Of a stretch of 51,361 nucleotides of DNA, positions 3,001 through 35,173 are shown piece by piece; within the stretch, counting starts at the first letter, position 1; every line of letters begins with the position of its first letter. The notes beneath the pieces are model-generated. The model did no database searches and was not told where the DNA came from. It was given only the letters and a program-made list of their open reading frames with translations. The stretch covers positions 1-51,361 of IMG/VR virus record IMGVR_UViG_3300015371_000055. The stretch is one strand, 5' to 3'. Source of the stretch: a virus. The translations under genes and the position numbers were made by a program.

Positions 3001-4110
3001 GTCGTCAACAACACCATCTCCGGGTGCGGCCGCGGCATCCTCCAAGGCAAAAACGGTGTCGTCCGCAACAACATCGTCTACAACTGCCAATCCTCCAACT
3101 ACGACATCCGCGAAACCGGGAACACCGTCTCCAACAACTTCTCCGGAGGCGGCGGCAACACCACCGGCATCACCGGCGTCGCCGCCGGGGTGGACGTCAA
3201 GTTCAACAACATCACCGGACTCGACTTCCGCCTCCAACCCACCTCACCAGCGCTCAACGCAGGCACCGCCACCAGCGCCCCGCCCCGGGACATCGTCGGC
3301 ACCCTCCGCCCACAAGGCTCCGGCATCGACGCAGGCTGCTACGAAATGCCCATCGGATCCACCACCACCGGCGGCACCACCACCGGCGGCGGATCGACCG
3401 GGACCGGATCCACCGGTGGCGCCTCCAACGCCGACGATGGTGTTGAGGCCGCGAAGCTGCTCGGCTGGGGCGCTGTCATCGACGGCGACGAATTTAGCTA
3501 TTCGGGTGCGCCAAATTCGCGCTGGGAAATGTACGACGGTCCTGGACATGACGGAAACGGGATTCGCACACCGTCTGCGTACAGTGTCGCCAACGGGATT
3601 TTGACCTGCACCGGCACCGCTGGTGGCGCCACCGGCGGCATGGCGTTCGGTGGACGCTCATCAAAGTTTTGGCGTGTGGAGTGGCGGGTCCGGACCTACT
3701 CGATCAATCCCAAGGGCTCTGGGCATCGCTACCACGCCGTGCTAATTCTGTGGCCGGATTCGGATCAATGGCCGCAGGGCGGTGAGGACGATTTCTACGA
3801 GGTAGATTGCGAGGACGGCGCATTTACTGCGTACATCCACGTACCCGGAAACGACGGATCGAACCAGTATGCCTACGAAAAGATTCGGTCGCTGGACCTG
3901 GAAAACTGGCACAACATTGCGTTCGAGCGGGCTAAGACCGGTGTGACCTGCTGGATCGATGGCCAGCAGGCGTTCAAGATTACCGATTCAAAGGTCCAAG
4001 TGCCCGGCCCACTTCATATCACCACACAGCTTGACAATTTCTTCGGAAGTGGTATGGAACCGGCCAAAATGGAACATCAATGGGTGAGGATCTACAATCC
4101 GCCTGCGTAG
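1..4110 (+). CDS. Multidomain tail protein with GH46 chitosanase, PL7-like, beta-helix and GH16 modules (5' end outside window)
   Basis: The frame is open from base 1, so the true start lies upstream; the first ATG is at 19. Bases 1-600 resemble the C-terminal part of actinophage minor tail or baseplate-hub proteins. Bases ~640-1490 match GH46 chitosanases: Glu codon at 679 (STAENS) and Asp codon at 733 (DIGDGRGYT) have the same 18-residue spacing as Glu22/Asp40 of the Streptomyces N174 enzyme. Bases ~1540-2270 look like a PL7 alginate-lyase fold: RVEYRE (1786), QMH (1921) and YFKSGSYMQ (2152). After a Gly/Thr linker comes a right-handed beta-helix (~2356-3350). After a second linker comes a GH16 domain (~3435-4107) with catalytic pattern E-x-D-x-x-E (EDDFYE, 3784-3801). 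The likely role is host glycan degradation or binding at the tail tip. The GH16 part uses visibly more A/T-ending codons than the rest. Confidence 0.85.
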   Translation, partial: NSTYDFMSKLADSRGCVLRFDEFGQLNIDVRDPDPGSAPVYSIAPGQTGNLIKASRKTTRDGYYNIVVAYGSDPAAPTGYRLAYNNDPNSPLRWDSQYGAAARYYASPLLRTPQQAADAAAAVLSHYTGLPTTLGLWTVPNPALRPLDAIQAKITGLAETHIVDTVTIPLAIAGAGPVEIATRTLNEVLIPETVDGTSSGGSDTGTDQPTPAQIAQEKAFELTSTAENSTVQWWNQFSYLEDIGDGRGYTCGIAGFTSATGDLLEVVQSYASTKPGNVLAPFIPGLTTCANAGMGGTASTLANTNLGTPFKTAWATAAADTVFQTVQINYRNQVYWTPAFNIAVGDALSNLGLAIYYDTSINHGMGSPDENDGSFDDIYAAADVNANQAARLILIRIRSGQTILEDWTWPGAPAVVGTYNDTLQTAWTGAGSPDAATWLEQYWLTAFLAARGAVLTAWGDNPSDGRIHMFTVLMATGNMTLTTPFTWSVYGDTYTMSTDQFPYGWVGGNSGGGSVTFPNPGVAHNIGSAPGQNSFNLGVGFDGDPTFGTTHHDFSRDEIAAGLIVPGYYELNPAGEVVMTAHPGGGKTSSKTSYSRVEYRELERDGTTKMAFNPSVGRHYIKGRSEVNALSAKKPQVVLAQMHNSSDDTAMVYINNQTQVLAKVNGTSIGTLGTHTVGGALHDWMIELVDGTINFYWDDLTTVKLSSTAFKNVTAGQYFKSGSYMQWNLSNGDATLCPVRLVGLEHWHSVTPKSPTPWPQPARPASTTGGTTGGTGGGTGTGSGGFAARLFVATTGSDGNSGLSKTLAKATIAGALAAANPGDTISVGAGTYTGNITIGAGGTSGGGYITIRSETPRAAIISGTGSGSQSAVQINAGYIRLQDLTITGTSSSGVRYGVDVEASNVEVKNCHIYQICQFRTEGTSFQGGAGINFDQPSYSNISIDGNEIHDIGPGVGVEQLVHGIYCGVAGTNFRITNNLIYDCEDFGVHEYPTSSASGIEVVNNTISGCGRGILQGKNGVVRNNIVYNCQSSNYDIRETGNTVSNNFSGGGGNTTGITGVAAGVDVKFNNITGLDFRLQPTSPALNAGTATSAPPRDIVGTLRPQGSGIDAGCYEMPIGSTTTGGTTTGGGSTGTGSTGGASNADDGVEAAKLLGWGAVIDGDEFSYSGAPNSRWEMYDGPGHDGNGIRTPSAYSVANGILTCTGTAGGATGGMAFGGRSSKFWRVEWRVRTYSINPKGSGHRYHAVLILWPDSDQWPQGGEDDFYEVDCEDGAFTAYIHVPGNDGSNQYAYEKIRSLDLENWHNIAFERAKTGVTCWIDGQQAFKITDSKVQVPGPLHITTQLDNFFGSGMEPAKMEHQWVRIYNPPA
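2299..2355 (+). repeat. Gly/Thr linker-coding repeat, copy 1
   Basis: Simple repeats of ACC/GGC codons join the PL7-like domain to the beta-helix in the first tail gene. Near-identical DNA occurs again at 3361-3420, so the two copies flank the beta-helix and could act as recombination points. Confidence 0.7.
3361..3420 (+). repeat. Gly/Thr linker-coding repeat, copy 2
   Basis: ACC/GGC codon repeats separate the beta-helix from the GH16 domain. The copy shares the string CACCGGCGGCACCACC with the linker at 2299-2355. Confidence 0.7.
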
Positions 4111-4736
4111 TCCCGCATGATGTGGGCGTAGCGTCGATGGGCTTCCTCCTGCCAGGTCTCGCCTCGACACCGTTGGAAGCCGTCACGTCCGCGGTTGTAA
4201 CGGGTCCGTTCGCGCCCTTGTTGTCGCAGCCGCTCGTCGTGCAGAGCGTTGGCTAGCGACAATTTGCAGGCCAAGCAATTGCGCCCGGCGCTGGACGCGA
4301 CGAGGTTGGGTGCGACGAGCAGGTGGCCGAGCTCGTCGCGCTTTTTTCGGGCCTGGACGTGGTTACCGTTCTCCACGTTGTCGTCGGAGTTCTCTGAGTA
4401 CGTGCCCCAGCGTAGGTTCTCGATGTGGTTGTGGGCGGGGTCATCGTCCTCGTGCAGGCCGTTCGGCTTGTCGGGCGGCGGTTCCCCCTTGAAGGCTCTT
4501 AGGACGAGCCGGTGGACCTTGACAGCCGTGAGGTTCCCGCGCCCGTCCGCGAGTTGGACGCTCCGGTATCCGTGGGGCTTGACGACGCTGAGCTTTAGCA
4601 TCCGCCCCTTCCGCAGGGTGCGGGTGCCGAACCGGTTGCCGCAGTATGCGTCGAGGCTGCGGACGCGGCCGTGAGAGCTGACCTCGTAGCGGTCTTCGTA
4701 GCCGGGGACCGGTCGCCACTCCTCGGGGGTGGTCAC
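4092..4736 (-). CDS. NUMOD4/HNH homing-type endonuclease
   Basis: A 214-residue protein. The N-terminus (EEWRPVPGYEDRYEVSSHG) is the NUMOD4 DNA-binding motif of phage HNH endonucleases. The HNH core follows (VHRLVLRAF, then HNHIENLRWGTYSEN), with a basic C-terminal tail. The GTG start at 4736 overlaps the stop of the upstream gene as GTGA, which decides the start over a longer upstream frame. It lies opposite to the tail genes and its 3' end overlaps the first tail gene by 19 bp, so it looks like an inserted selfish gene. The precise target is unknown. Confidence 0.85.
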   Translation of the reverse strand: MTTPEEWRPVPGYEDRYEVSSHGRVRSLDAYCGNRFGTRTLRKGRMLKLSVVKPHGYRSVQLADGRGNLTAVKVHRLVLRAFKGEPPPDKPNGLHEDDDPAHNHIENLRWGTYSENSDDNVENGNHVQARKKRDELGHLLVAPNLVASSAGRNCLACKLSLANALHDERLRQQGRERTRYNRGRDGFQRCRGETWQEEAHRRYAHIMRDYAGGL

Positions 4737-5026
4737 AGCAACTCCCGATGGAGCTTGGTGAGACTGATCTCGCCGTCGACGTAGGCCCAGAAGGCGGTTG
4801 TGCAACCTTCCTCACCTGCGACGAAGCGGGAGTTGAGCAGTACGTCGATCGCCGTGTTCCAGCGCTCCTCGCTGGCGCGCCGGTCGTGCGCACTCCGGCG
4901 AACATCACACGCTCGGTCGTTTCGACACTCCCACGTGTCGTTGTCTCCGCCAGCCGGGAAGTAGCTGCGCTTGCTTGTGCCGATCCGGTGACAAATGCGG
5001 CATTCATAGAACTTCAACGGGTTCAT
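4733..5026 (-). CDS. Small zinc-ribbon-like protein
   Basis: A 97-residue protein of unknown function with an N-terminal Cys set (ECRICHRIG and ECRNDRACD) that could bind zinc. It is first in a two-gene operon with the HNH endonuclease (GTGA overlap). The ATG at 5026 is chosen because a GTG at 5035 lies inside the predicted -10 box. With the promoter at 5034-5062 the mRNA would be nearly leaderless. Confidence 0.65.
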   Translation of the reverse strand: MNPLKFYECRICHRIGTSKRSYFPAGGDNDTWECRNDRACDVRRSAHDRRASEERWNTAIDVLLNSRFVAGEEGCTTAFWAYVDGEISLTKLHRELL

Positions 5027-5033
5027 GCCTTGC

Positions 5034-5062
5034 ACTGTACCTCACTCTAGATACTTGTCCAA
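5034..5062 (-). promoter_or_regulatory. Sigma70-type promoter for the HNH operon
   Basis: On the minus strand: TTGGAC (5062-5057), a 17-bp spacer, then TACAGT (5039-5034). The ATG at 5026 is only 7 nt after the -10 box, as expected for a leaderless transcript. Confidence 0.6.
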
Positions 5063-5077
5063 GAGGAGGTGCGGCGT

Positions 5078-5329
5078 ATGTCCGCTGAGCTGTCCCGCCT
5101 GTTCCAGCCCCCCACCGTCGGTGTTGGCCTGCCGTTGCTGATGCAGGGCACCTGTACCGCCTGGGATCCGGCCACCTCCCGTTCGACGGTGGTGGTGGGT
5201 GGGGTGGCGACCTACACGAACGCCCCCATCTTGAACGGTGCTTTGGCGACGATGGGTGTCGGCGCTGTTCTGGTGATTTTTTCGACTGCCGGGCCGATCA
5301 TTTTGGGCCGTCTCACCATCCCTGTCTGA
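5078..5329 (+). CDS. Small tail-module protein, function unknown
   Basis: An 83-residue, beta-rich, hydrophobic protein. AGGAGG at 5064-5069 fixes the ATG at 5078 rather than the GTG at 5069. It sits between the HNH operon and the tail-fibre genes and ends just before the next SD. Size and position suggest a small virion or baseplate part; I do not recognise a family. Confidence 0.65.
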   Translation: MSAELSRLFQPPTVGVGLPLLMQGTCTAWDPATSRSTVVVGGVATYTNAPILNGALATMGVGAVLVIFSTAGPIILGRLTIPV

Positions 5330-5346
5330 CCTGAGGAGTTTCGAAA

Positions 5347-6066
5347 TTGGCTGACACGGGTGGGCTGTTCAGTCTGCGCTACCAAACTTTGGCGGACGCC
5401 CCGGACGGCGCCGGTTTGGGTGAGCATTTGGCGACGGACACGGCGGGTTGGTTGTCGCGGAAGTATCCGGTGGCCAACGCCGCGGCTCGGGTCGCGTTGT
5501 CTGGGCTGGGTACCGGGTTTCAGGTTATCCAGGCCGATGATGACTCGGAGTGGACGTGGAACGGGTCGGCGTGGCAGGCCGTGTCCGCCGGCACTGGGGG
5601 TGGTGGGGGCGGCGGCGGCGGGTCGGGCCTGTTCATCGAGGGCCAGTACCGGGCGGCCGGGAATCAGTCGATCCCGAACGGCACGGACACGGTGGTCGGG
5701 TTCGGCACCACCGAAACGGCGTCGGCGGCGGTCACGAGGGCCACGTCAGGAACGGGCCACAAGTTCACTTTGGCCAACACCGCCACGTACGCGATCACGG
5801 CGGTGGTCCGGTTCGCTGCCGGTACGGCGGGGTCGCGGTTCATCGAGTTGCGGGACGCGGCGCAAACCACCGGCTATGTCGCGTCTGGTGGGCAGGGTGG
5901 GCCTGCGGCGGCGACCCGCACGTTCTCGCTGACGAAGGGGTTCACGGCGGGCACCGAGCTCGTGGTGATTGCGGCCCAGTCGTCTGGGGGGGCGCTGTCC
6001 ACGGACTATCAGGGCACCTCGCCGACCGTGTACCGGGTGCGTTTGACTATCGTGCAGTTGGGCTGA
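5347..6066 (+). CDS. Minor tail protein with C1q-like C-terminal domain
   Basis: A 239-residue protein starting with TTG after GAGGAG (5334). The first ~80 residues are a phage fibre-type anchor, ending in the bridging motif WTWNGSAWQAV. A run of nine glycines follows. The rest (~95-239) is a beta-sandwich reminiscent of the C1q/TNF-like domains at the tips of phage fibres. It overlaps the next gene by 1 bp (TGATG). It likely forms a trimeric tail appendage. Confidence 0.7.
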   Translation: MADTGGLFSLRYQTLADAPDGAGLGEHLATDTAGWLSRKYPVANAAARVALSGLGTGFQVIQADDDSEWTWNGSAWQAVSAGTGGGGGGGGGSGLFIEGQYRAAGNQSIPNGTDTVVGFGTTETASAAVTRATSGTGHKFTLANTATYAITAVVRFAAGTAGSRFIELRDAAQTTGYVASGGQGGPAAATRTFSLTKGFTAGTELVVIAAQSSGGALSTDYQGTSPTVYRVRLTIVQLG

Positions 6067-6452
6067 TGTTTACGCAGGTCACGGTCACCCGCGACTACGA
6101 CTTCGCCGACGGCGCCGACCCGTCTGGCACGGTGTCGTTCACGTTGTCGGAGTGGCTGGTGAACGGGGTGACCGTGCCCGCTGCGGCGGTGACGACTGCG
6201 TTGGATGTGGATGGCCGGATCAGTGTGGTGTTGTTCGCGAACACCGACCCGGCCACCGACCCGGCCGGCAGCTACTACGTGGTGCGGGAAGACATCGCCG
6301 GTCAGCCTCGCCGCACCTACCGGATGATCGTCCCGCACGATGTGGGATCGCCCCTGGACCTGTCCGCCCTGGCCGGAGCCTACCCATCGGTTCTTACCGT
6401 TACGGGCGGCTACGGCGGCGGCGGCTACGGCACCACCGGATACGGAGACTGA
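6066..6452 (+). CDS. Tail adaptor protein, copy 1 (short)
   Basis: A 128-residue protein with an Ig-like or carbohydrate-binding-like beta-sandwich. Its first ~100 residues are clearly paralogous to the protein at 8461 (shared VTVTRDYD, LDVDG, ANTDPAT and GSYY). The C-terminus is a Gly/Tyr-rich tail (GGYGGGGYGTTGYGD). It directly precedes a beta-helix protein, so it may be the connector that attaches the fibre. It starts with TGATG overlap. Confidence 0.7.
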   Translation: MFTQVTVTRDYDFADGADPSGTVSFTLSEWLVNGVTVPAAAVTTALDVDGRISVVLFANTDPATDPAGSYYVVREDIAGQPRRTYRMIVPHDVGSPLDLSALAGAYPSVLTVTGGYGGGGYGTTGYGD

Positions 6453-6455
6453 CCC

Positions 6456-8414
6456 TTGCCTGTCACTGAGCCCTCTCTCGGCGCCACCGGCTGGAACACG
6501 TGGGGCCACGACGTCACCACCATCGTCAACACTGTGGAGACGGCGGATGCGCGGCTGGACGCGCTCGAGGCCGGCGCGGTCGGTGCGGTCACGTCGGTGA
6601 CGGCGGCGAACGCCACAGTCACCGTTGGGGGTACCGGTACTGCGCCCACGGTAGCGGTGGGCACGATCGCCGAATCGCAGGTCACTAACCTGGTCACCGA
6701 CCTGGCCGCGAAGTTGGTGAAAGCCTCCAATCTGTCCGACTTGGCCAATACGGCGACGGCGCGCACCAACCTCGGGTTGGCCCCGATCGCGGCGTCGGGG
6801 TCGGCGACGAACCTATCCACCGGGACGGTGCCGACCGCCCGGTTGGGGTCGGGGGTCGCGTCCAGCACCACGTTCCTGCGGGGTGACCAAACGTGGGCCA
6901 CCCCGCCCAGCGGCGGCGGCACCGGATGGTCGGTGTTCGTCAACGACGTGGGCGGGTTGGGTGACGGCACCACAGACGAGACGACCACCCTGCAGGGCAT
7001 CATCAACGCCAACGCCGGGAAGGTTCTGTCGTTTAACCCGACCGGGGTGTATCTGGTGCAGCAACTGCTGCTGCCCTCCAACACTCATCTCGAACTGAAC
7101 GGTTGCACGATCCGGCGGATCATCAACACCACCGGCGCCACGAACGGTGCCACGATCCGCAACACCAACCAGGGCCCGACCAGCACCGACGTCAACATCA
7201 CCGTGCGGGGCGGCACCATCGATGCCCGCAACGACTCGTCGGGGCGTCCCTGGAGCCTGAACGGGGTCACCGGGCTGCGGGTGCAGGACATGACGATCGC
7301 CCGGGGGGCGGCGATCTTCGCGGACTGGATGTTCCACTTCGAGAACTGCACCACTGTCAGGGTGGACAACTGTCGGGTGACCGGTGGCACCGAGGTCGGT
7401 GAGGACGGCTGCCACATCAAGTCGACCACCGACATGGTGGTGACCAACTGCATCTTCGAGGCCGGGGATGACGCCCTGGTGTTGGTGCACGAGTTCGACC
7501 AGGTCCGCCCGATCAAGGACATCACGATCTCGAACTGTGTGCTGGCCTCCCAGAGCGCGAACGCGCTGAAGATCGCCGTGCATGCCGACGAAACCATGGC
7601 GATCGAGAACGTGACGATCTCCAACATCGCGATCCGGCCGCCCGCCACGACTCCGGCCGGGAACTGCGTCACCATCGAGGACATCACCGACACCGGGCTG
7701 CTGCGTCGGGTCTCCGTGTCGGATGTGGTGATCGACGCGACCGGGTATCCGGGAAACGCGGTCACCATCCTGAACGTGGTCGACTCCGAGTTCTCCAACT
7801 GGCGCATCTACGGGGCGTCGGATCGGTCGATCATCGTGACCAAGGGTCAGCGGCTCAAGTTCACCGACATCGTCTGTGACACCCCGAACGGGGCCACCGG
7901 CAACCCACATTGGTACCTCACCGGCGGATGTGTCGACATCCAGCACATCGGCTGCGTCGTCAAGGCCGCCTCCATCCAGGGCTGGGTCATAGACACCACC
8001 GGCACCCGCGACATCAGCTTTGTCGGCTGCCAGGCCCTCACCAACACCCAACAGGCGTGGAACATCACCTACGCCGCACGCGTGTCACTGGTCGGCTGCA
8101 CCGTCCGCGGCGGCTCCGCCCCGATCATCTGCGACGCCACCCACCCGCCCACCGACCTCAAAGTGGTGGGCTGCAACTTCTCCGGCTACTCGGGTGGTGC
8201 GGTCATCACGAACCCGCCCACCACGTTCGAGTACGTCGGCAACACCGACGACCAGGCCCGCGGCAACCAACTGTCGAACACCAAGCTCGGGTTTTTCGGC
8301 ACCACCCCGGCGGCGAAACCCACCGTCACCGGCGCGAAGGGCGGCAACGCGGCATTGACATCGCTGTGCACCCAACTGGCGGCGCTGGGTTTGATCACCG
8401 ACACCACCAGCTGA
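6456..8414 (+). CDS. Tail fibre / beta-helix depolymerase-like protein (GH28-like fold)
   Basis: A 652-residue protein, TTG start, GGAG at ~6445. Residues 1-150 carry tail-fibre stalk motifs (SNLSDLANTATARTNLGL; TFLRGDQTWATP). Residues ~160-600 form a right-handed beta-helix with GH28-type landmarks: GEDGCHIKS, EAGDDALVLV (the Asp-Asp pair) and NALKIAV. The C-terminus (KLGFFGTTPAAKPTVTGAKG) is the common actinophage fibre terminus. The likely role is receptor binding and/or polysaccharide cleavage. The full polygalacturonase NTD and HG motifs are not evident, so activity is uncertain. Confidence 0.8.
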   Translation: MPVTEPSLGATGWNTWGHDVTTIVNTVETADARLDALEAGAVGAVTSVTAANATVTVGGTGTAPTVAVGTIAESQVTNLVTDLAAKLVKASNLSDLANTATARTNLGLAPIAASGSATNLSTGTVPTARLGSGVASSTTFLRGDQTWATPPSGGGTGWSVFVNDVGGLGDGTTDETTTLQGIINANAGKVLSFNPTGVYLVQQLLLPSNTHLELNGCTIRRIINTTGATNGATIRNTNQGPTSTDVNITVRGGTIDARNDSSGRPWSLNGVTGLRVQDMTIARGAAIFADWMFHFENCTTVRVDNCRVTGGTEVGEDGCHIKSTTDMVVTNCIFEAGDDALVLVHEFDQVRPIKDITISNCVLASQSANALKIAVHADETMAIENVTISNIAIRPPATTPAGNCVTIEDITDTGLLRRVSVSDVVIDATGYPGNAVTILNVVDSEFSNWRIYGASDRSIIVTKGQRLKFTDIVCDTPNGATGNPHWYLTGGCVDIQHIGCVVKAASIQGWVIDTTGTRDISFVGCQALTNTQQAWNITYAARVSLVGCTVRGGSAPIICDATHPPTDLKVVGCNFSGYSGGAVITNPPTTFEYVGNTDDQARGNQLSNTKLGFFGTTPAAKPTVTGAKGGNAALTSLCTQLAALGLITDTTS

Positions 8415-23491: not shown

Positions 23492-23665
23492 ATGAGCCTG
23501 CGTCTGCTGGCCAGCGGCTGCGACGGCGGGGACTGCCCGTCGATTCACCTCGACGAGGACACCGGCGAGATCATCGTCCGGGGACCGGACTCGACCGATC
23601 CGAGTATCGAGCGGTACCTGCGCTACCCGGCCGACACGTGGCGGGCCCTGCTCGCGCAGCTGTGA
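23492..23665 (+). CDS. Small acidic protein of the DUF6879/DUF5753 cassette
   Basis: A 57-residue protein; GGAGGGA before ATG 23492 favours it over the ATG at 23474. CDGGDCPSIHLDEDTGEIIV resembles the short proteins that precede DUF6879 genes in actinomycetes and loosely resembles DUF397. GTGA overlap with the next gene. Probably works with the two following proteins. Confidence 0.65.
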   Translation: MSLRLLASGCDGGDCPSIHLDEDTGEIIVRGPDSTDPSIERYLRYPADTWRALLAQL

Positions 23666-24216
23666 CCGGCCTGGACGCTGCCGCGTTCGACGCTCTGTTC
23701 AACGACTTCTACTTCGACGTTGTTCGGCTGGAAACCCTGCCCGCCTACTCGGTCGGCGGGGCGGAGCAGCAGCGGATAGTGGCGTGGCGGGAGGGTTTGC
23801 CGCGGCCGGAGCGCAGCGTCCGCACCGATCCTTGGCTGGCCCGCATCGCCACATCCACCGTCCGGGGTGGGCTGTCGTGGCGGCGTGTGCGGGTGTTCGA
23901 TGACCCGCCCAGCGACTACCAGCGCTACCAGTTGGAGAGCTACCGCGAGGCGCAGGCTGCCGGTGATCAGGTGGCCATCGCCTCCCGTGCCGACGTGGGG
24001 GAAACCGGTCCGGACGTGTGGGTGTTCGACGCGGGCACTCAGTACGCCCGTGCGGTGGTCATGCACTACCGCGACGACGGCAGCCTGGACCGTCGTGAAC
24101 TCGTCGAAGACCCGACCACTGTCGCGCATCTGGCCATGGAGGTTGCCCGGGTCGCGTCCCAGGCGTTGCCGTTGAACGAGTGGCTTGTTCGGGCTGGCGT
24201 CAACGCCGGTGCCTGA
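23662..24216 (+). CDS. DUF6879 family protein
   Basis: A 184-residue protein. FNDFYFDVVRLETLPAYSV, a central W-x-RRVRVFDDPPSDYQRYQL and DVWVFDAGTQYARAVVMHY match the actinobacterial DUF6879 family as I recall it. Biochemical role unknown, but the family is often next to DUF5753 regulators, as here. GTG start overlaps the previous stop; its 3' end overlaps the following gene by 8 bp. Confidence 0.75.
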   Translation: MTGLDAAAFDALFNDFYFDVVRLETLPAYSVGGAEQQRIVAWREGLPRPERSVRTDPWLARIATSTVRGGLSWRRVRVFDDPPSDYQRYQLESYREAQAAGDQVAIASRADVGETGPDVWVFDAGTQYARAVVMHYRDDGSLDRRELVEDPTTVAHLAMEVARVASQALPLNEWLVRAGVNAGA

Positions 24217-25021
24217 CAGCCGCCGCGACCAGTTGCGGGCTGAGCTGATGCGCCTGCGTATGCAGGCCGGGCTCGGTGGCCGACCCCTGGCCGAAAAGAT
24301 CGACTCGACGCAGGCCACGGTGTCGAGGATCGAACGCGGCCAAACCCTGCCGAGCCTGCCGATTGTGCGGGCTTGGCTGAAAGCCTGTGGCGCCGACCCG
24401 GAAACCACGACCAGGGTGGTGTCGTTGGCGGAGGCGGTGCACACCTACACCCGCGGCTGGGCGGCGCTCCTCGACGAGCATGGGCACGCGCAACGCGAGT
24501 TCCGGGCCCGAGAGGTGGCGTCACGCAGGGTGCGGAACTTCCAGCCGAGCGTCGTCCCTGGTCTGCTGCAAACCCCGGAGTACGCGCGTGCCGCGTTCTC
24601 GATGGGCCGCACCCGGGACGTCGATGCGGCGGTGGCGGAACGGATCGCCCGGCAAACAATCCTGTACGAGGAGGGGCGGCGGTTCGAGTTCATCCTGGCC
24701 GAGCAGGTGCTGCACATCCCCTACGGCGGGCCGGAGGTGTTGGCGGCGCAGCGCGACCGGCTGGTGTCGTTGGCGCGGCTGCCCACGGTTGAGCTCGTGG
24801 TCCTGCCGACGTCGCCGGTGGTGATGGCGTTGTGGTCGAACTTCATCATCTGGGACCCGAAGGAAGACCCGCCGTATGGGGCTTCGGAGACGTGGCTGGG
24901 GGAGACGAAGGTGGAGGATCCCGGCGAGGTGGCGTGGCTCGAGGAGGTGTGGTCCCGCCTGTGGGATGCGTCCGTGCAGGGGGATGCGGCGTTGGATTTG
25001 ATCCGGAGGCGATGGGAGTGA
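24209..25021 (+). CDS. XRE-type regulator with DUF5753 (Scr1-like)
   Basis: A 270-residue protein. HTH at ~11-56 (LRMQAGLGGRPLAEKI; TQATVSRIERGQ). The rest is DUF5753: FQPSVVPGLLQTPEYARA, then FILAEQVL, VVLPTSPVVMALWSNFII and WLEEVWSRLWDASV. The family is described as antitoxin-like regulators in Streptomyces. I choose GTG 24209, but a TTG at 24185 in the same frame is possible. A phage copy could control lysogeny or host TA-like circuits. Confidence 0.85.
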   Translation: MPDSRRDQLRAELMRLRMQAGLGGRPLAEKIDSTQATVSRIERGQTLPSLPIVRAWLKACGADPETTTRVVSLAEAVHTYTRGWAALLDEHGHAQREFRAREVASRRVRNFQPSVVPGLLQTPEYARAAFSMGRTRDVDAAVAERIARQTILYEEGRRFEFILAEQVLHIPYGGPEVLAAQRDRLVSLARLPTVELVVLPTSPVVMALWSNFIIWDPKEDPPYGASETWLGETKVEDPGEVAWLEEVWSRLWDASVQGDAALDLIRRRWE

Positions 25022-28162: not shown

Positions 28163-28192
28163 TTGACACCTGCGGCCATGTGCGGCCATGAT
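28163..28192 (+). promoter_or_regulatory. Leaderless promoter overlapping operator motif copy 2
   Basis: TTGACA (28163-28168), 18-bp spacer, CATGAT (28187-28192), and the GTG start at 28199. GGCCATGTGCGGCC (28174-28187) fills the spacer; TGCGGCCATG is also tandemly duplicated (28171-28190). A bound repressor would block RNA polymerase. Confidence 0.65.
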
Positions 28193-28198
28193 GGGCCT

Positions 28199-28444
28199 GT
28201 GGCCGCGCCGATGAGAGACCTTGTCCTCCGCGCCGGGGCCCTCCGAGATCGACGGCTCGCCCTCGAGATGACGCAACGCGAACTGTCAGCGCGCACCAAG
28301 CTGGCGCCGTCGTTCATCAAGTACCTCGAAAACGGGGTGTGTCAGCCGTCGGATGTCAGCCTGCGCAAACTCTGCCGGGCCCTGGAGTGCACCCCCGAGG
28401 ACATCACCAGCCCCAAACCAGACGTGTCCGGGTCGGCGGCATGA
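28199..28444 (+). CDS. XRE-type HTH protein (Cro-like)
   Basis: An 81-residue protein, essentially one HTH domain (LRDRRLALEMTQRELSA; LAPSFIKYLENG). GTG 28199 lies 6 nt after the -10 box, so translation is probably leaderless. It is divergent to the repressor, starts the rightward early operon, and overlaps the next gene (ATGA). A lytic-switch regulator is likely; an excisionase-type role is an alternative. Confidence 0.75.
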   Translation: MAAPMRDLVLRAGALRDRRLALEMTQRELSARTKLAPSFIKYLENGVCQPSDVSLRKLCRALECTPEDITSPKPDVSGSAA

Positions 28445-29979: not shown

Positions 29980-30008
29980 TTGACCGGAGGGCCATGTGGG
30001 GCCATGAT
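29980..30008 (+). promoter_or_regulatory. Leaderless early promoter overlapping operator motif copy 3
   Basis: TTGACC (29980-29985), 17-bp spacer, CATGAT (30003-30008), ATG at 30015. GGCCATGTGGGGCC (29990-30003) fills the spacer. From the motif to the start codon it matches the 28163 promoter with two differences in 28 bp. This should drive the long early operon. Confidence 0.7.
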
Positions 30009-30014
30009 GGGCCT

Positions 30015-30254
30015 ATGCCTGCTGAGACTTCCAGACTAGAAATCCCTCCTCTGACATGCCGAGACTTCACCTCGTGGCACCTCGGCGGTGGCCGCTGGGT
30101 GATGGCCCATCGGTCCCAACCCGGCAACCGGTGGGAGGTGCTGCGCATCCAGTTCGGCCGTGAGACCCGGGTCAGCGTGCACCTGGAACGAGACCGAGCG
30201 GAGATGGAAGCGCAAGCCCTGGCTGTGCTGCTTACCGCAGCGGTGACGGCATGA
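30015..30254 (+). CDS. First gene of the early operon, unknown
   Basis: A 79-residue protein (CRDFTSWHLGGGRWVMAHRS... RVSVHLERDRAEMEAQAL). Probably translated from a leaderless mRNA. ATGA coupling to the next gene. No family known. Confidence 0.65.
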   Translation: MPAETSRLEIPPLTCRDFTSWHLGGGRWVMAHRSQPGNRWEVLRIQFGRETRVSVHLERDRAEMEAQALAVLLTAAVTA

Positions 30255-30400
30255 TCGACGTCGATGAGGCGCTGCACGCCGTTGACGAGGGCTGGGCCGG
30301 ATACACCGAGGCTGAGATCCTCGCCCGTGAGGTAGCGGATTACCGGGCGCTGGTGACTCGGCTCCGTGCCCGCGTCGCCGAACTTGAGGCCTCCACCTAA
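30251..30400 (+). CDS. Very small helical protein
   Basis: A 49-residue protein (MIDVDEALHAVDEGWAGYTE... RARVAELEAST), predicted helical and perhaps a short coiled coil. Overlaps the previous stop as ATGA. Confidence 0.55.
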   Translation: MIDVDEALHAVDEGWAGYTEAEILAREVADYRALVTRLRARVAELEAST

Positions 30401-30411
30401 GCCAGCGCGTC

Positions 30412-30837
30412 ATGAGTCGCCGCGGAGGTACCTGGCGGGTGCGCTGCACCTGGCCCGACGGTTGCAAAGAGGTCGCCCACTTCGAGTACGACTCCCAGCA
30501 CGAACTGCGGGCGATGCAGAGCAGGGACTACTACCGGCAGTGGAAGTGCGTGTGGCACACGCAGCCGGACCGGAACCTCGTCCCGGAGCATCAGGCCAAC
30601 TCTGTCGTCCTCGTCTGCGCCGCGCTCATCAACGACGACGGCAAGGAGTACGGCCGGTCGTGGCGGGAAGAGGGCGCGTCGAGCGGGTCTGGGTTCAGCC
30701 ACTCGCCTGCGCATAAGGCGACCGCGGCGGACTGGCCGGTCGGGACACGGCTGGTCGTCACCGCCTACATCGAGACCCCCGACCAGGCCGAGATCGCCCG
30801 GACCTGTGATGACTTCACGCCGGAGGGCGCGTCATGA
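30412..30837 (+). CDS. Hypothetical early protein
   Basis: A 141-residue protein (WRVRCTWPDGCKEVAHFEYDS; VVLVCAALINDDGKEYG). Several Cys and Trp at the N-terminus suggest a small zinc or beta domain. ATGA overlap to the next gene. Confidence 0.6.
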   Translation: MSRRGGTWRVRCTWPDGCKEVAHFEYDSQHELRAMQSRDYYRQWKCVWHTQPDRNLVPEHQANSVVLVCAALINDDGKEYGRSWREEGASSGSGFSHSPAHKATAADWPVGTRLVVTAYIETPDQAEIARTCDDFTPEGAS

Positions 30838-31040
30838 ACGCCATGCAGCACTACCAGTTGGCCGAGAAGCTGCTCAAGTTCGCGCGAGAGAACGCCGACG
30901 CAGACGGTGACTACCTGGTGGCGTCCGCTCAGGCGCATGCCACGTTGGCGCTGACCGCGGTGCAGGCCATGGGCGCCCGTTGGTACGACACGTCCCCGCA
31001 GTGGCGGGCCACGTTCGACCCTCCCGGCGGTGCGTCATGA
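30834..31040 (+). CDS. Small helical protein
   Basis: A 68-residue protein (YQLAEKLLKFARENADADGDYLVA), TPR-like helical pattern. Similar short proteins are common in actinophage early operons; function unknown. Coupled by ATGA on both sides. Confidence 0.6.
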   Translation: MNAMQHYQLAEKLLKFARENADADGDYLVASAQAHATLALTAVQAMGARWYDTSPQWRATFDPPGGAS

Positions 31041-31246
31041 CCGTCGACGACATGCTCCAGCGGCAGCGCGACCGCGCCCGCAAAGAGCGGGACGAGTTCC
31101 TGGCCGACCTGAACGAGGCCCACCAACTGCTCCAACGGATCGACGGCATGGCGGCGCAGCTGTTCCTGGTCGATGCGACGTCTCTGATCGCGTCCGACAT
31201 CCGTGAGGCGATCGACAACTATTTCAACTTGGGGACAACGGCGTGA
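31037..31246 (+). CDS. Small coiled-coil protein
   Basis: A 69-residue protein with a charged helix (MLQRQRDRARKERDEFLADL). ATGA start; GTGA overlap to the next gene. Confidence 0.6.
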   Translation: MTVDDMLQRQRDRARKERDEFLADLNEAHQLLQRIDGMAAQLFLVDATSLIASDIREAIDNYFNLGTTA

Positions 31247-31698
31247 ACCTGGACTCGCTCACCTTGGGCCTGATGCTTGCGGTGACCCTCGCGGTCGTCT
31301 TCACCGCCGCAGGCTGGGCTGCCCGAGGCTGGCATGACCGGCGCAAGGCTAAGGCCAGCATTGCGTCGACTATTGCGACGGCCCAGGCGCTGGTGGCCGA
31401 ACAGCAACGGCTCGCCTTCCCCGCCCCTGCCGCACCGGCGCCTCGTCCGGCGGGTCCTCCTGCGGCTCCGATGGTGCTCGGCGCCGTCGTCGAACCAACC
31501 ACCCGCATCCGGCCGGTCGCGCAGCGGACCCCGGAGATGGCGGCCCGGGCTTCCCCGGACCGGCTACGCCCGGCCACCGTCCCCCCGGCACCGAAGCCGC
31601 GGATTCAGCCCAAGCCGCAGCAGCGTGGCCGGCACTGGCCCGCCGACATCAACCACACCGGCGCCATCCCCATCGTTCAGAAAGAGACCGCATCATGA
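31243..31698 (+). CDS. Membrane-anchored Pro/Ala-rich protein
   Basis: A 151-residue protein with one N-terminal membrane helix (~7-28), then a basic Ala helix and a long Pro/Ala/Arg-rich tail. It sits immediately before whiB. The tail would face the cytoplasm if the N-terminus is outside. Function unknown. Confidence 0.6.
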   Translation: MNLDSLTLGLMLAVTLAVVFTAAGWAARGWHDRRKAKASIASTIATAQALVAEQQRLAFPAPAAPAPRPAGPPAAPMVLGAVVEPTTRIRPVAQRTPEMAARASPDRLRPATVPPAPKPRIQPKPQQRGRHWPADINHTGAIPIVQKETAS

Positions 31699-32156
31699 CC
31701 ACCACCCCGCCTGCGGAGGTGAAGACCTGCGCCGACTGCCGGGTGGAGTTCACCCGCGCCCCCGACCAGTCGGATCACTCGTGGCGGCGCACCCTGTACT
31801 GCCACACGTGCGGCCTCAAGCATTCCCGCGGGTCGACCCGTGGACCCGTTAACCGGCCGGCCCCACACGCACCGGCATCGTTCGTGGCGCCGGTCGGGCT
31901 GGCCAAGGATTGGCGTCACCGCGCTATCTGCCGCGATGAGGAGCCCGAGCTGTTCTTTCCTGTGGGGACCAGCGGGCCCGCGCTGCTGCAGATCGCCGAG
32001 GCCAAGACGGTCTGCAGGCGCTGCCCCGTGGTCAGCGAGTGCCTCACGTGGGCACTGGAGTCAGGCCAGGACGCGGGCGTGTGGGGGGCGATGAGCGAGG
32101 ACGAGCGCCGCGCGTTGAAGCGCCGCCAGTACCGGACCCGGGCAAGGTCGGCATGA
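31695..32156 (+). CDS. whiB: WhiB-family regulator with N-terminal zinc-ribbon-like extension
   Basis: A 153-residue protein. The WhiB domain has the four Fe-S cysteines (Cys79, Cys107, Cys110, Cys116; CRRCPVVSEC) and the following turn G-V-W-G (GVWGAMSEDERRALKRR). Upstream (1-45) lies an extra CADC...CHTC set, unusual for WhiB proteins. WhiB proteins bind a 4Fe-4S cluster and the main sigma factor and control septation and sporulation genes; the mycobacteriophage TM4 homologue blocks host septation. Translationally coupled (ATGA) to an SsgA-like gene. Confidence 0.92.
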   Translation: MTTTPPAEVKTCADCRVEFTRAPDQSDHSWRRTLYCHTCGLKHSRGSTRGPVNRPAPHAPASFVAPVGLAKDWRHRAICRDEEPELFFPVGTSGPALLQIAEAKTVCRRCPVVSECLTWALESGQDAGVWGAMSEDERRALKRRQYRTRARSA

Positions 32157-32539
32157 GCACCGTCACCCGGCACCTCCAAGCCGTCGTCCCGCCCGACAAC
32201 CGGCTGTTGGTGGTGTTGTCGTGGGATCAACACGATCCGTTCGCGGTGACCATGGACGTGTATGTGCGGCTGGGGTTGGCGCCGGAGCGTTGGGTGTTCG
32301 CCCTGGACCTGCTCGAGGCCGGTTTGCACGGTCTTGCGGGGGAGCTCGACATTTTCGTTCTGCCGGCGTCGGAGTCGCAGACCCGGATTGTGTTGCGGCC
32401 CCCGGGTCGAGTGTTGGCGACGCTGCTGCTGCCCTCGACCGGGGTCGCCGCGTTTTTGGCGGACACGTTCATCGTCGATGCCCCACCCATCCCGGACTAC
32501 CTGCACGACATCAATTGGGGAGAGGTGGTCGAGGGATGA
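32153..32539 (+). CDS. SsgA-like sporulation/cell-division protein
   Basis: A 128-residue protein matching the SsgA-like (SALP) family over its whole length: WDQHDPFAVTMDVYV, then the core ERWVFALDLLEAGLHGLAG-ELDIFVLP, a strand RIVLRPPGRVLATLLLP and the helix GVAAFLADTFIV. Host SALPs guide septum site selection and peptidoglycan remodelling in sporulating actinomycetes. It overlaps whiB by 4 bp, so both are made together early. It may redirect host division or sporulation (inference). Confidence 0.85.
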   Translation: MSTVTRHLQAVVPPDNRLLVVLSWDQHDPFAVTMDVYVRLGLAPERWVFALDLLEAGLHGLAGELDIFVLPASESQTRIVLRPPGRVLATLLLPSTGVAAFLADTFIVDAPPIPDYLHDINWGEVVEG

Positions 32540-32721
32540 ACCCCAACGACCTGTTCGCTGCGGAGATCGCGCAGTACCGCCGCGACTTCATCAACGACGC
32601 CGCCCGCGCCGCGGTTGACGCCGACCGTCACCCGGACGAGGTGGCCCGCATCGTGTATTTGGCCGGGCTGCGTTGGGACGACACCCACCCCACTTTGGCG
32701 CGGCGGGCGGAGGCAGCGTGA
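32536..32721 (+). CDS. Small early protein, unknown
   Basis: A 61-residue helical protein (DLFAAEIAQYRRDFINDAARAA). ATGA coupling to the SsgA-like gene; 1-bp overlap with the next. Confidence 0.6.
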   Translation: MNPNDLFAAEIAQYRRDFINDAARAAVDADRHPDEVARIVYLAGLRWDDTHPTLARRAEAA

Positions 32722-33077
32722 TGAGCAAGCAGCCGACCACGTACGAACTGGCCGCGGCCGAGCAGCGGATCTTGGACCTGGAGGCGGAGCTGGCGCACGC
32801 GCGCCCGGTCGCGGACGCGGCCCACGCCATGCATGCGGCCGAGAAGGCGCTCGACGAGGGAGATGGGTTCTACCGTGACGTCAAGCGTGCGCGTGCCGCT
32901 TTCGTCGCCGCTTGCGAGGCCACGACCCCGTCCGCGACCCCGCCCACGCACGTGATCGTGGCCGTGGACGAACTGGAGCGGCTGCGGGCGGTCGATGGTC
33001 ATAGGGCCGTCCTGGCCGAGCGGTGCGCCCGAAAAGACCTGGAGCTCGACGAGCTGCGCGAGCGAGGCGGTGTGTGA
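32721..33077 (+). CDS. Coiled-coil early protein
   Basis: A 118-residue protein with N-terminal heptads (YELAAAEQRILDLEAELAHA) and a second helix at the C-terminus (DELERLRAVDGHRAVLAERC). TGATG overlaps on both sides. Unknown function. Confidence 0.6.
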   Translation: MSKQPTTYELAAAEQRILDLEAELAHARPVADAAHAMHAAEKALDEGDGFYRDVKRARAAFVAACEATTPSATPPTHVIVAVDELERLRAVDGHRAVLAERCARKDLELDELRERGGV

Positions 33078-33193
33078 TGCGCCGAATCCTGCTGGTTGTC
33101 GCCGCGGTGTGGGCTGTTGTTGTCGTCTGGCACATCTTGGAGACCACCCAGCCGCGTTGGCAACGCCGCGCGATCAACGGGGACCTGGCATGA
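33077..33193 (+). CDS. Tiny membrane protein
   Basis: A 38-residue protein: one N-terminal membrane helix (RILLVVAAVWAVVVVWHIL) and a basic tail. Overlaps both neighbours (TGATG and ATGA). Confidence 0.55.
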   Translation: MRRILLVVAAVWAVVVVWHILETTQPRWQRRAINGDLA

Positions 33194-33399
33194 GCGCCGA
33201 CAGGGATCACACGGCCTGCGCGCAGTACATCCGCGACTTTTTCGCAGGCGAAGGTATCGACGCCACCGTCTCCACCGCCCCACCGATCGTGGCCACTCCG
33301 TACACGGAGCCGGGCATGAGGTGCCCGCACGGCACCACGTTCTGGTTTGAACCCACATCGGAGCAGATCGCGCAGTGGGCGAAGGACGGTGTCCGGTGA
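33190..33399 (+). CDS. Small early protein, unknown
   Basis: A 69-residue protein (CAQYIRDFFAGEGIDATVST... CPHGTTFWFEPTSEQIAQW). No known family. ATGA and GTGA overlaps. Confidence 0.6.
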   Translation: MSADRDHTACAQYIRDFFAGEGIDATVSTAPPIVATPYTEPGMRCPHGTTFWFEPTSEQIAQWAKDGVR

Positions 33400-33644
33400 C
33401 CGGGCGGCGGTGTGTGGACGGCCTGGAGCCGCACTACACCGAAAACGGCCGCGAATGGTGGGCGTGTGCGGGCTGCCCGGGCTGCGCCCATCTGGAGCCG
33501 GTTGATGTGCACGAATCTGGCTGCCTGATCTGGGTGTCGGCGGACCCGGCCGACACCTGCACCTGCCGCGCCTTCCCGCTACTCGCCCCGGAACCAGGGT
33601 CGGCGGCGGCGGCGTTGGACCGCATCGACAGGCGCGCGTCATGA
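33396..33644 (+). CDS. Small Cys-rich protein
   Basis: An 82-residue protein with CAGCPGC, then CLIW, CTC; likely zinc binding. Coupled by ATGA to the methyltransferase. Confidence 0.6.
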   Translation: MTGRRCVDGLEPHYTENGREWWACAGCPGCAHLEPVDVHESGCLIWVSADPADTCTCRAFPLLAPEPGSAAAALDRIDRRAS

Positions 33645-35173
33645 GGCTCACTCAGGCCGGTCTCTGCGAGGGTTACGGCGGCTTGTCGCTGGCCGTGACG
33701 GAGGTGTTGGGGGCTGAGCTCGTCTGGTACTCCGAGATCGACCCGGCCGCCCGCGCGCTGCTCGCCCGGCACCACCCGACGCTGCCCAACGTCGGTGACC
33801 TCACCGTCGCCGACTGGTCGGACGTACAGCCTGTTGATGTTCTTACCGGCGGGTGGCCATGCCAGCCCTGGAGCCTGGCCGGGCAACGTAAGGGAGCCGC
33901 CGATGAGCGCGCGATCTGGCCGCACATCGCCCGAGCCGTTCGCGCTCTACGACCCCGACTCGTGTTCTTGGAAAACGTCGCGAGTATCGCTCCCGCTGGA
34001 GAACTTGCCCGAGCTGCCGGTGACTTGGCCGCACTCGGGTACGTGGGATCTTGGCGGCGCGTACGAGCTTCCGACGTCGGCGCCCCCCACCAAAGGGCGC
34101 GGATCTTCATCCTGGCGTGGGCCCGAGACGTGGGAATGGACGCCGAAGCCGGAGCCGTTGACGCCCGACTCCGCATGGTTGGCGGGTCTGTTCGAGGGCG
34201 AGGGCTACATCACTCTTCGGCTCGACTGCCGCAAGCCGAGGGTGCTACTTGGGGTGTCGATGACCGACGAGGACGTGATTCGGCGGTTCTGGAACACGAC
34301 TGGTCTTGGTCGGCTGAACGGGCCATACGCGCAGCGCGGGTTCGGGACGAAGCCAGTGTGGCGATGGATCACGTCGTCGGCGGACGAGGTCGAGACGATG
34401 CTGAACCGGATGTGGCTTGGCCTTGGGGAACGTCGCCATGCCCGTGCTGTGGAGGCGATGACGACGCTTCGGCTACCGGCAGGGGAGACACAGTCTCTGG
34501 TGCCTACAGCGCTGCTACCGACACCGAGGACGTCGGACACCAACGGGGCCGGGCAACACGGAGACGGCGGGCTGGACTTGCGCACGGCGGTGACTCTGCT
34601 ACCCACACCGCGCGCGTCAGACGGGGAGAAGGGTGGCCCGAATCAACGCGGCTCGTCGGGGGATCTGATGCTGCCCAGCGCCGTGATGCTGCTTCCGACG
34701 CCGATGGCGAGCGATTCGGAAGGCGGACCTCGGAAGGTTCCTGCGGATCGCAGCGACCCGCGCAGTCACGGACCCCGGCTGCGGGATGTCGCGCCGCTGC
34801 TCCCGACACCGACGGCGATGGACTCGCGTTCGTCGGGCAAGGGTCAGAGTGGGACGCACGGGACGACGTTGACGGATGCGGCCAGGACGATCGCGTCGAC
34901 TGGGCCGGATACGCCCCCGCCATCCAACGGTGGGAACACGTCACCGGACGACGAGCTCCCGATCCCACTGTTCTAGGCGCCCGCGGCGGTCGGCAGTTGT
35001 CGGCGCAGTTCGCGGAGTGGCTGATGGGACTGCCGGACGGGCACGTCACCGACGTCCCGGGGATCTCCCGCAACGCCCAGTTGAAGCTGTGCGGGAACGG
35101 GGTCGTGCCCCAGCAGGCCGCGCACGCGCTGCGGCTGATGCTGGCTGCCGATTCGGGGCGGGTGGCGGCATGA
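33641..35173 (+). CDS. C5 cytosine-specific DNA methyltransferase
   Basis: A 510-residue protein. Motif I LCEGYGGLSLA, motif IV GGWPCQPWSLAG with nucleophile Cys74, motif VI FLENV (Glu111), motif VIII APHQRARIFILAW, and C-terminal motif X (QLKLCGNGVVPQQAAHALRL). It methylates cytosine in a sequence context, probably to resist host restriction. Residues ~165-440 carry no C5-methyltransferase motif and are Asp/Gly/Arg-rich; the same DNA encodes a different protein in another frame (33903-34976). ATGA overlaps at both ends. Confidence 0.85.
   Translation: MRLTQAGLCEGYGGLSLAVTEVLGAELVWYSEIDPAARALLARHHPTLPNVGDLTVADWSDVQPVDVLTGGWPCQPWSLAGQRKGAADERAIWPHIARAVRALRPRLVFLENVASIAPAGELARAAGDLAALGYVGSWRRVRASDVGAPHQRARIFILAWARDVGMDAEAGAVDARLRMVGGSVRGRGLHHSSARLPQAEGATWGVDDRRGRDSAVLEHDWSWSAERAIRAARVRDEASVAMDHVVGGRGRDDAEPDVAWPWGTSPCPCCGGDDDASATGRGDTVSGAYSAATDTEDVGHQRGRATRRRRAGLAHGGDSATHTARVRRGEGWPESTRLVGGSDAAQRRDAASDADGERFGRRTSEGSCGSQRPAQSRTPAAGCRAAAPDTDGDGLAFVGQGSEWDARDDVDGCGQDDRVDWAGYAPAIQRWEHVTGRRAPDPTVLGARGGRQLSAQFAEWLMGLPDGHVTDVPGISRNAQLKLCGNGVVPQQAAHALRLMLAADSGRVAA
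33903..34976 (+). CDS. Nested out-of-frame gene with LAGLIDADG domain inside the methyltransferase
   Basis: A 357-residue frame inside the methyltransferase gene. ATG 33903 has a good SD (AAGGGAG, 7-nt spacing). Residues ~1-75 (SGRTSPEPFALYDPDSCSW; LPVTWPHSGTWDLGGAYELP) and the later repeats LLPTPRTSD, LLPTPRASD, LLPTPMASD and LLPTPTAMD match a phage protein type I recall beside methyltransferases. Between them, ~34158-34490 encodes a LAGLIDADG homing-endonuclease domain: LAGLFEGEGYITL (34179), VSMTDEDVIRRFWNTTG, WRWITSSADEVETML. Codon third positions favour G/C in this frame. One LAGLIDADG copy, so it would act as a dimer or be a remnant. Confidence 0.7.
   Translation: MSARSGRTSPEPFALYDPDSCSWKTSRVSLPLENLPELPVTWPHSGTWDLGGAYELPTSAPPTKGRGSSSWRGPETWEWTPKPEPLTPDSAWLAGLFEGEGYITLRLDCRKPRVLLGVSMTDEDVIRRFWNTTGLGRLNGPYAQRGFGTKPVWRWITSSADEVETMLNRMWLGLGERRHARAVEAMTTLRLPAGETQSLVPTALLPTPRTSDTNGAGQHGDGGLDLRTAVTLLPTPRASDGEKGGPNQRGSSGDLMLPSAVMLLPTPMASDSEGGPRKVPADRSDPRSHGPRLRDVAPLLPTPTAMDSRSSGKGQSGTHGTTLTDAARTIASTGPDTPPPSNGGNTSPDDELPIPLF

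Follow-up and report, generated by a model that had tools for sequence, protein, structure and literature searches.

The early operon of a virus genome carries, side by side, two genes that are best known from actinobacteria: wbl, encoding a WhiB-like protein of class I (WhiB1/WblE-type), and salp, encoding a divergent SsgA/SsgB-like protein (SALP). Members of both gene families have been found in phages before. New variants, however, are the class I Wbl carrying a cysteine knuckle at its N terminus and the SALP without its arginine latch. We lean towards an explanation in which both genes are host-derived and used early in infection, with the Wbl working on sigma factor and RNA polymerase, and the SALP on the SsgA/SsgB/FtsZ system.

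The window, a 51,361-base IMG/VR virus record, contains tail genes, a terminase, a serine integrase and a rightward early block with genes for YqaJ recombinase, RecT, DnaB helicase and an HNH endonuclease. The terminase is ~30% related to terminases of Streptomyces and Microbacterium phages, and the best match of the integrase is 33%. These two proteins point to an actinobacterium as host, perhaps a Streptomyces-like one.

In line with the first-pass annotation, the WhiB and SsgA-like genes lie back to back in the early operon, with the YqaJ, RecT and DnaB genes downstream, and they share an ATGA, i.e., a 4-bp overlap. The two genes had also been described as fused, but they are separate, overlapping ORFs (Table 1). 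Third-position GC is high in both genes (0.87, 0.84), and their codon scores are positive. Between 30015 and 33641, 11 of the 13 junctions of successive genes are 4-bp overlaps; the last junction leads into a methyltransferase ORF. Since this overlap is common to nearly all operon junctions, it is nothing special for wbl and salp.

Table 1. Features of the wbl-salp locus and of the promoter-like sites upstream (positions in the window).
Feature	Position	Strand	Basis
Second promoter-like element, same arrangement and repeat, before small Cro/C1-type regulator gene (28199-28444)	28163..28201	+	
Early-operon promoter-like element (TTGACC-17-CATGAT; 6 nt from the -10 to the start codon)	29980..30017	+	
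Block of the early operon with small, overlapping genes, wbl and salp among them	30015..33644	+	junction overlaps
wbl, class I (WhiB1/WblE-type) WhiB-like protein, 153 aa, core residues 72-152	31695..32156	+	PF02467
N-terminal extension of Wbl, C12-x2-C15 ... C36-x2-C39, putative zinc knuckle	31695..31904	+	sequence
salp, divergent SsgA/SsgB-like protein, 128 aa	32153..32539	+	PF04686, SALP structures

The two promoter-like sites span 28163-28192 and 29980-30008, in each case with a start codon 6 nt further on, and they have a 24-nt element in common, GGCCATGTGnGGCCATGATGGGCC, at 28174-28197 and 29990-30013 (two copies, expected 0.00). This shared element suggests that wbl and salp belong to an early operon governed by a switch of the phage itself, and common control of the C1-type regulator and the early operon is likely. 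Leaderless transcripts, with the ATG shortly after the -10 box, occur in actinobacteria. The early-operon transcript of this phage is probably leaderless too.

Membership of the Wbl family was judged by four Fe-S cysteines, a G[VI]WGG turn, a basic C terminus and a Pfam match. The Pfam search was positive (PF02467, Whib; E = 2e-25, 89.6 bits, cut-off 23.6), and all four Fe-S cysteines claimed earlier are indeed present (C79, C107, C110 and C116), as is a basic C terminus (RRALKRR). Unlike WhiB1, the protein has GVWGA in its turn, where the last G of GVWGG is replaced by A. Its best solved relative by far is WhiB1 of Mycobacterium tuberculosis (E = 1.9e-42, 148 bits), compared to 57 bits for Streptomyces venezuelae WhiB. 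The core is 76.5% identical to M. tuberculosis WhiB1 and shares all sigma-contact and cluster residues with WhiB1/WblE. W73, F87, F88 and W130 correspond to the sigma-contact residues W3, F17, F18 and W60 of WhiB1, and the C-terminal arginines R143/R144 correspond to R73/R74.

The phylogeny agrees with these comparisons. In a tree that included 15 Wbls from a Streptomyces caniscabiei genome (G001), the window Wbl was separated from M. tuberculosis WhiB1 by a path of 0.22 and from a WblE-like protein of Streptomyces by 0.27; support for the class I group was modest (93/81). Orthologues were present in 386 of the 395 genomes of the class sampled (E <= 1e-20), at identities of up to 83%. Wbl-domain matches in 50,697 phage records all remained below 60% identity, and the metagenomic viral contig L009 carries a Wbl core that is 92% identical to the core in the window. 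The Wbl is a class I protein.

This class assignment bears on the function that was first proposed. The first-pass annotation had argued from the WhiB of phage TM4, which blocks septation through competition with WhiB2 (PMC6282962). Like the window Wbl, TM4 WhiB is encoded by a phage, in an operon whose genes overlap by 4 bp. However, TM4 gp49 is only ~77 aa long, lacks the extension, is 40% identical to the window Wbl, and falls in the septation-controlling class II group with developmental WhiB, whereas the window Wbl groups with WhiB1/WblE and not with WhiB/WhiB2, the grouping by which class II was recognized. Hence, the analogy with TM4 does not transfer, and a TM4-like septation block by this Wbl is not supported and was rejected on the grounds of its class, as apparent from the WhiB1/WblE score, the tree and the identity. 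Class I Wbls are not among the known septation regulators; WhiB1 is essential in M. tuberculosis, while the importance of WblE in Streptomyces is unclear (PMC6282962).

Most likely, the window Wbl would serve as a cofactor that docks on sigma and makes one further contact. Binding of region 4 of the principal sigma factor, with a [4Fe-4S] cluster, is a mark of class I Wbls. In WhiB3, alanine at F31, F32 or W76 (equivalent to WhiB1 F17, F18 and W60) abolishes binding of sigma-A region 4; WhiB1 W3 was reported as crucial, and no DNA binding was shown for holo-WhiB1 bound to sigma region 4 (PMC10245118). The N-terminal extension, which the earlier annotation had not mentioned, comprises 70 residues with four further cysteines (Table 1), and its GC by codon position (0.64, 0.64 and 0.87) is like that of the Wbl core. 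Zinc binding by the extension is putative, because none of the zinc families scored above threshold (weak sub-threshold matches: FYVE, E = 0.006; endonuclease VII, E = 0.034). A contact with DNA or protein, which is missing in WhiB1, could be provided by this cysteine-knuckle N terminus.

On contig L010 (IMGVR_UViG_2615840680_000002), a prophage Wbl whose core is related has an N-terminal cysteine module of its own, with other spacing. Two Wbl genes follow each other in tandem at 3581-4617 of this contig and overlap by 4 bp; both proteins have cysteine pairs near the N terminus, and the core of the second is WhiB1-like.

In an alternative explanation, the phage uses the Wbl as an early transcription factor of its own, docking on sigma at phage promoters and unrelated to host development, with the SALP as an independent accessory gene. 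The class I core with its intact sigma-contact residues and new cysteine module would fit such a role, and the occurrence of the 24-nt element in both promoter-like sites, beyond chance, is in agreement with it, as is the N-terminal cysteine extension of the related L010 prophage Wbl despite its different spacing. DNA binding by the Wbl is putative, however, and the C1-type regulator at 28199 may instead use the repeated element as its operator. We regard this alternative as a serious contender, though somewhat improbable as it stands.

The SsgA-family assignment of the second gene was borne out as well. The SALP matches PF04686 (SsgA) with E = 8.8e-14 and 51.6 bits (cut-off 25), over residues 20-106 and profile positions 3-90 of 98, so that the refuting result named in the first-pass annotation, a failure of the SsgA profile to match, did not occur. 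Solved SALP structures were also matched by sequence (6slc, E = 5e-6; 3cm1, E = 4e-4); 6slc was deposited as SsgA, together with 6suj (entry title: SsgB). The top two Foldseek hits of the SALP model were SALP structures, where the match to the SsgB fold was weak (E = 0.012) and the model, made from a single sequence, was poor (pLDDT 60.6). With NCBIfam, the best match was SsgD at 36.6 bits versus a cut-off of 185, i.e., well below the level for a named subfamily, and in the tree the protein forms a long branch apart from SsgB rather than a placement with it. The best identity in host genomes was 46%, over part of the length only, and no close relatives of the SALP were found in phages, plasmids, viral contigs or genome contigs.

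The terminal branch of the SALP is 2.3 long. In the tree, its partner is a SALP of host genome G384 (support 99/82), apart from the other phage SALPs, which points to separate uptake of the genes. That the phage SALPs have one common origin was not rejected (p-AU 0.195); similarly, one clade of the SALPs of the window and of viral contig L128 was not favoured but also not rejected (p-AU 0.209). As to a donor on a mobile element, gene calling in the 20-kb neighbourhoods of the closest host SALPs (G384 and G111) gave mostly long genes.

The SALP belongs to the same Pfam family as SsgB of S. coelicolor and T. fusca (6suj, 6slc and 3cm1), with ~30% identity to SsgB. It keeps D28, P29, A31, V32, W47, F49, L53, L54, G57, G63, D66 and P71. 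In SsgB numbering, which we assigned from the residues named in PMC8061694, the equivalents of W51, F53, L57, L58, G61, G67 and D70 are retained, and so are the host-invariant D33, W51, G61 and P75. In contrast, R55 is replaced by Leu51 and G69 by Leu65, although every one of the 55 host SALPs has both residues and the phage SALPs in the same comparison keep R or K at 55 and G at 69. Furthermore, Y35 is changed to F and the C-terminal loop is rewritten.

In SsgB, a salt bridge between R55 and E120 sets helix alpha3, and changes of E120, G118 or V115 rotate the septa (PMC8061694). The E120G variant keeps FtsZ binding, while V115G, G118V and E120G largely lose the interaction with SsgA (PMC8061694). 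E120 is likewise host-invariant; its equivalent in the window SALP is ambiguous, being P114 according to the alignment tool and D115, a mild change, when aligned by hand on the PP pair. Loss of the arginine latch suggests an altered or dominant-negative SALP, and an action on septum placement, which SALPs control (PMC4255298), is plausible. A SALP that keeps the SsgA/SsgB core but lacks the arginine holding its last helix would most likely join or compete with host SsgB/SsgA complexes and thereby disturb FtsZ recruitment, as a decoy or an altered adaptor for septum placement.

According to an earlier description (PMC3814722), SALPs occur only in actinomycetes of complex morphology. Yet, the window and our phage survey indicate that they recur in phages, mostly unannotated. 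An ssgA gene in phage Dagobah and whiB genes in Alderaan and Coruscant were reported by Hardy et al. 2020 (PMC7650747), as restated in PMC10117723. Besides Dagobah, we found 38 Streptomyces phage records, including some duplicate accessions, with an SsgA relative that is labelled hypothetical or not annotated (e.g., NC_070783 106519-106896, NC_042105 112845-113219 and MZ820094 104662-105039). Five of these 38 were confirmed as PF04686, and the four with a full taxonomy line belong to the Stanwilliamsviridae, Loccivirinae. PHROGs contained no family for the phage SsgA relatives. With the Loccivirinae alignment as query, eight IMG/VR contigs carried SALP relatives; the L005/SsgB alignment and the Dagobah sequence returned nothing from the viral contigs, and L128 returned only itself. 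The L005 scaffold (MT838510, labelled human faecal phage) has a bacterial-type SALP at 4502-4936 (93 bits); it is an unverified 'Bacteriophage sp.' record that is possibly host DNA.

These phage SALPs resemble the window SALP in several respects. The Loccivirinae proteins (Faust, BillNye, Jada and Sham; 'hypothetical protein') are PF04686 members of ~125 aa with 44-60 bits, and the SsgA homologue of Dagobah (HUN42_00031) likewise lies in a block of small overlapping genes. However, the Loccivirinae SALPs retain R/K55 and G69 and have an Lsr2-like gene as nearest named neighbour, while the Dagobah SALP keeps the R55 and G69 positions and sits on a separate branch.

The first-pass annotation had proposed a survey of phage genomes for the same adjacency. 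At none of 77 other SALP loci did we find a Wbl beside the SALP, in a set that had short flanks for many host loci and counted a few phage genes twice, and phages contained no DNA-level relatives of the wbl-salp pair. Hence, direct adjacency looks new, and among the sampled loci it is so far unique. The whole Dagobah genome lacks a Wbl, and in the three Loccivirinae genomes searched a Wbl is present elsewhere, 11-29 kb from the SALP. On L128 (IMGVR_UViG_3300030512_000004), a viral contig of 46 kb, 1.3 kb separate the SALP from a Wbl, which is divergent. Here, the SALP, an endonuclease VII gene and the Wbl lie inside 2.1 kb (4953-7055). Adjacency as proof of joint function was rejected, because it is not conserved elsewhere and nearly all operon junctions overlap.

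From their position, wbl and salp could form a dedicated paired device, and this is possible. In its original form, the idea is that of one device reprogramming septation or sporulation, in which the Wbl, similar to TM4 WhiB, shuts down the developmental WhiB of the host while the SALP blocks septa. The adjacency of the two genes in one early operon and the role of SALPs in septum placement speak for it, and so do L128 and the three Loccivirinae genomes that hold both genes. This is offset by the Wbl being class I rather than class II, by the absence of a neighbouring Wbl at the other SALP loci and of any Wbl in Dagobah, by a chance of ~2% that two given genes are neighbours among the ~90 genes of the window, and by the tight overlaps throughout the operon. 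We consider such a device unlikely. A variant adapted to the class of the Wbl would be a takeover cassette for mycelial hosts, in which the class I Wbl, with a knuckle that binds DNA or protein, redirects the principal sigma factor, and the latch-less SALP, co-produced with the Wbl and dominant-negative in SsgB/FtsZ complexes, stops or misplaces septa, so that hyphae stay undivided during phage replication. This variant, too, is speculative and rather improbable.

That the SALP is decaying or neutral host-derived cargo without function is very doubtful: its very long branch and two lost invariant residues would be expected of such cargo, but its ORF is intact with coding-type composition in a tight operon, its Pfam score is twice the cut-off with most core residues kept, and SALPs persist in many other phages. 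We return to the explanation that a temperate actinophage took wbl and salp from hosts, probably separately, and that the two genes, now neighbours, would be made together, the Wbl acting on sigma/RNA polymerase through the sigma binding that its contact residues predict.

The variants described here might be useful beyond this phage. The window SALP is a natural variant in which the R55 latch is missing; in SsgB, E120, the partner of R55, controls how septa are oriented. The variant thus offers a ready tool for testing how SALPs steer FtsZ. Likewise, a class I Wbl with an N-terminal module would test what WhiB1/WblE needs for acting on DNA. Sporulation helps to contain phage infection in S. 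venezuelae (PMC10117723), and the wbl-salp locus would bear on how phages handle sporulation.

The window contains two other gene arrangements of note. Beside the integrase, a DUF6879 gene is followed by an HTH-DUF5753 regulator gene, Sco1979-like (23662-25021); such pairs are typical for mycelial actinomycetes. The C5-methyltransferase ORF (33641-35173) shares its DNA with an ORF of 393 aa in a different frame (33795-34976), for which PHROGs of methyltransferases and endonucleases were matched, as would result from a frame shift, an insertion or an overlapping gene.
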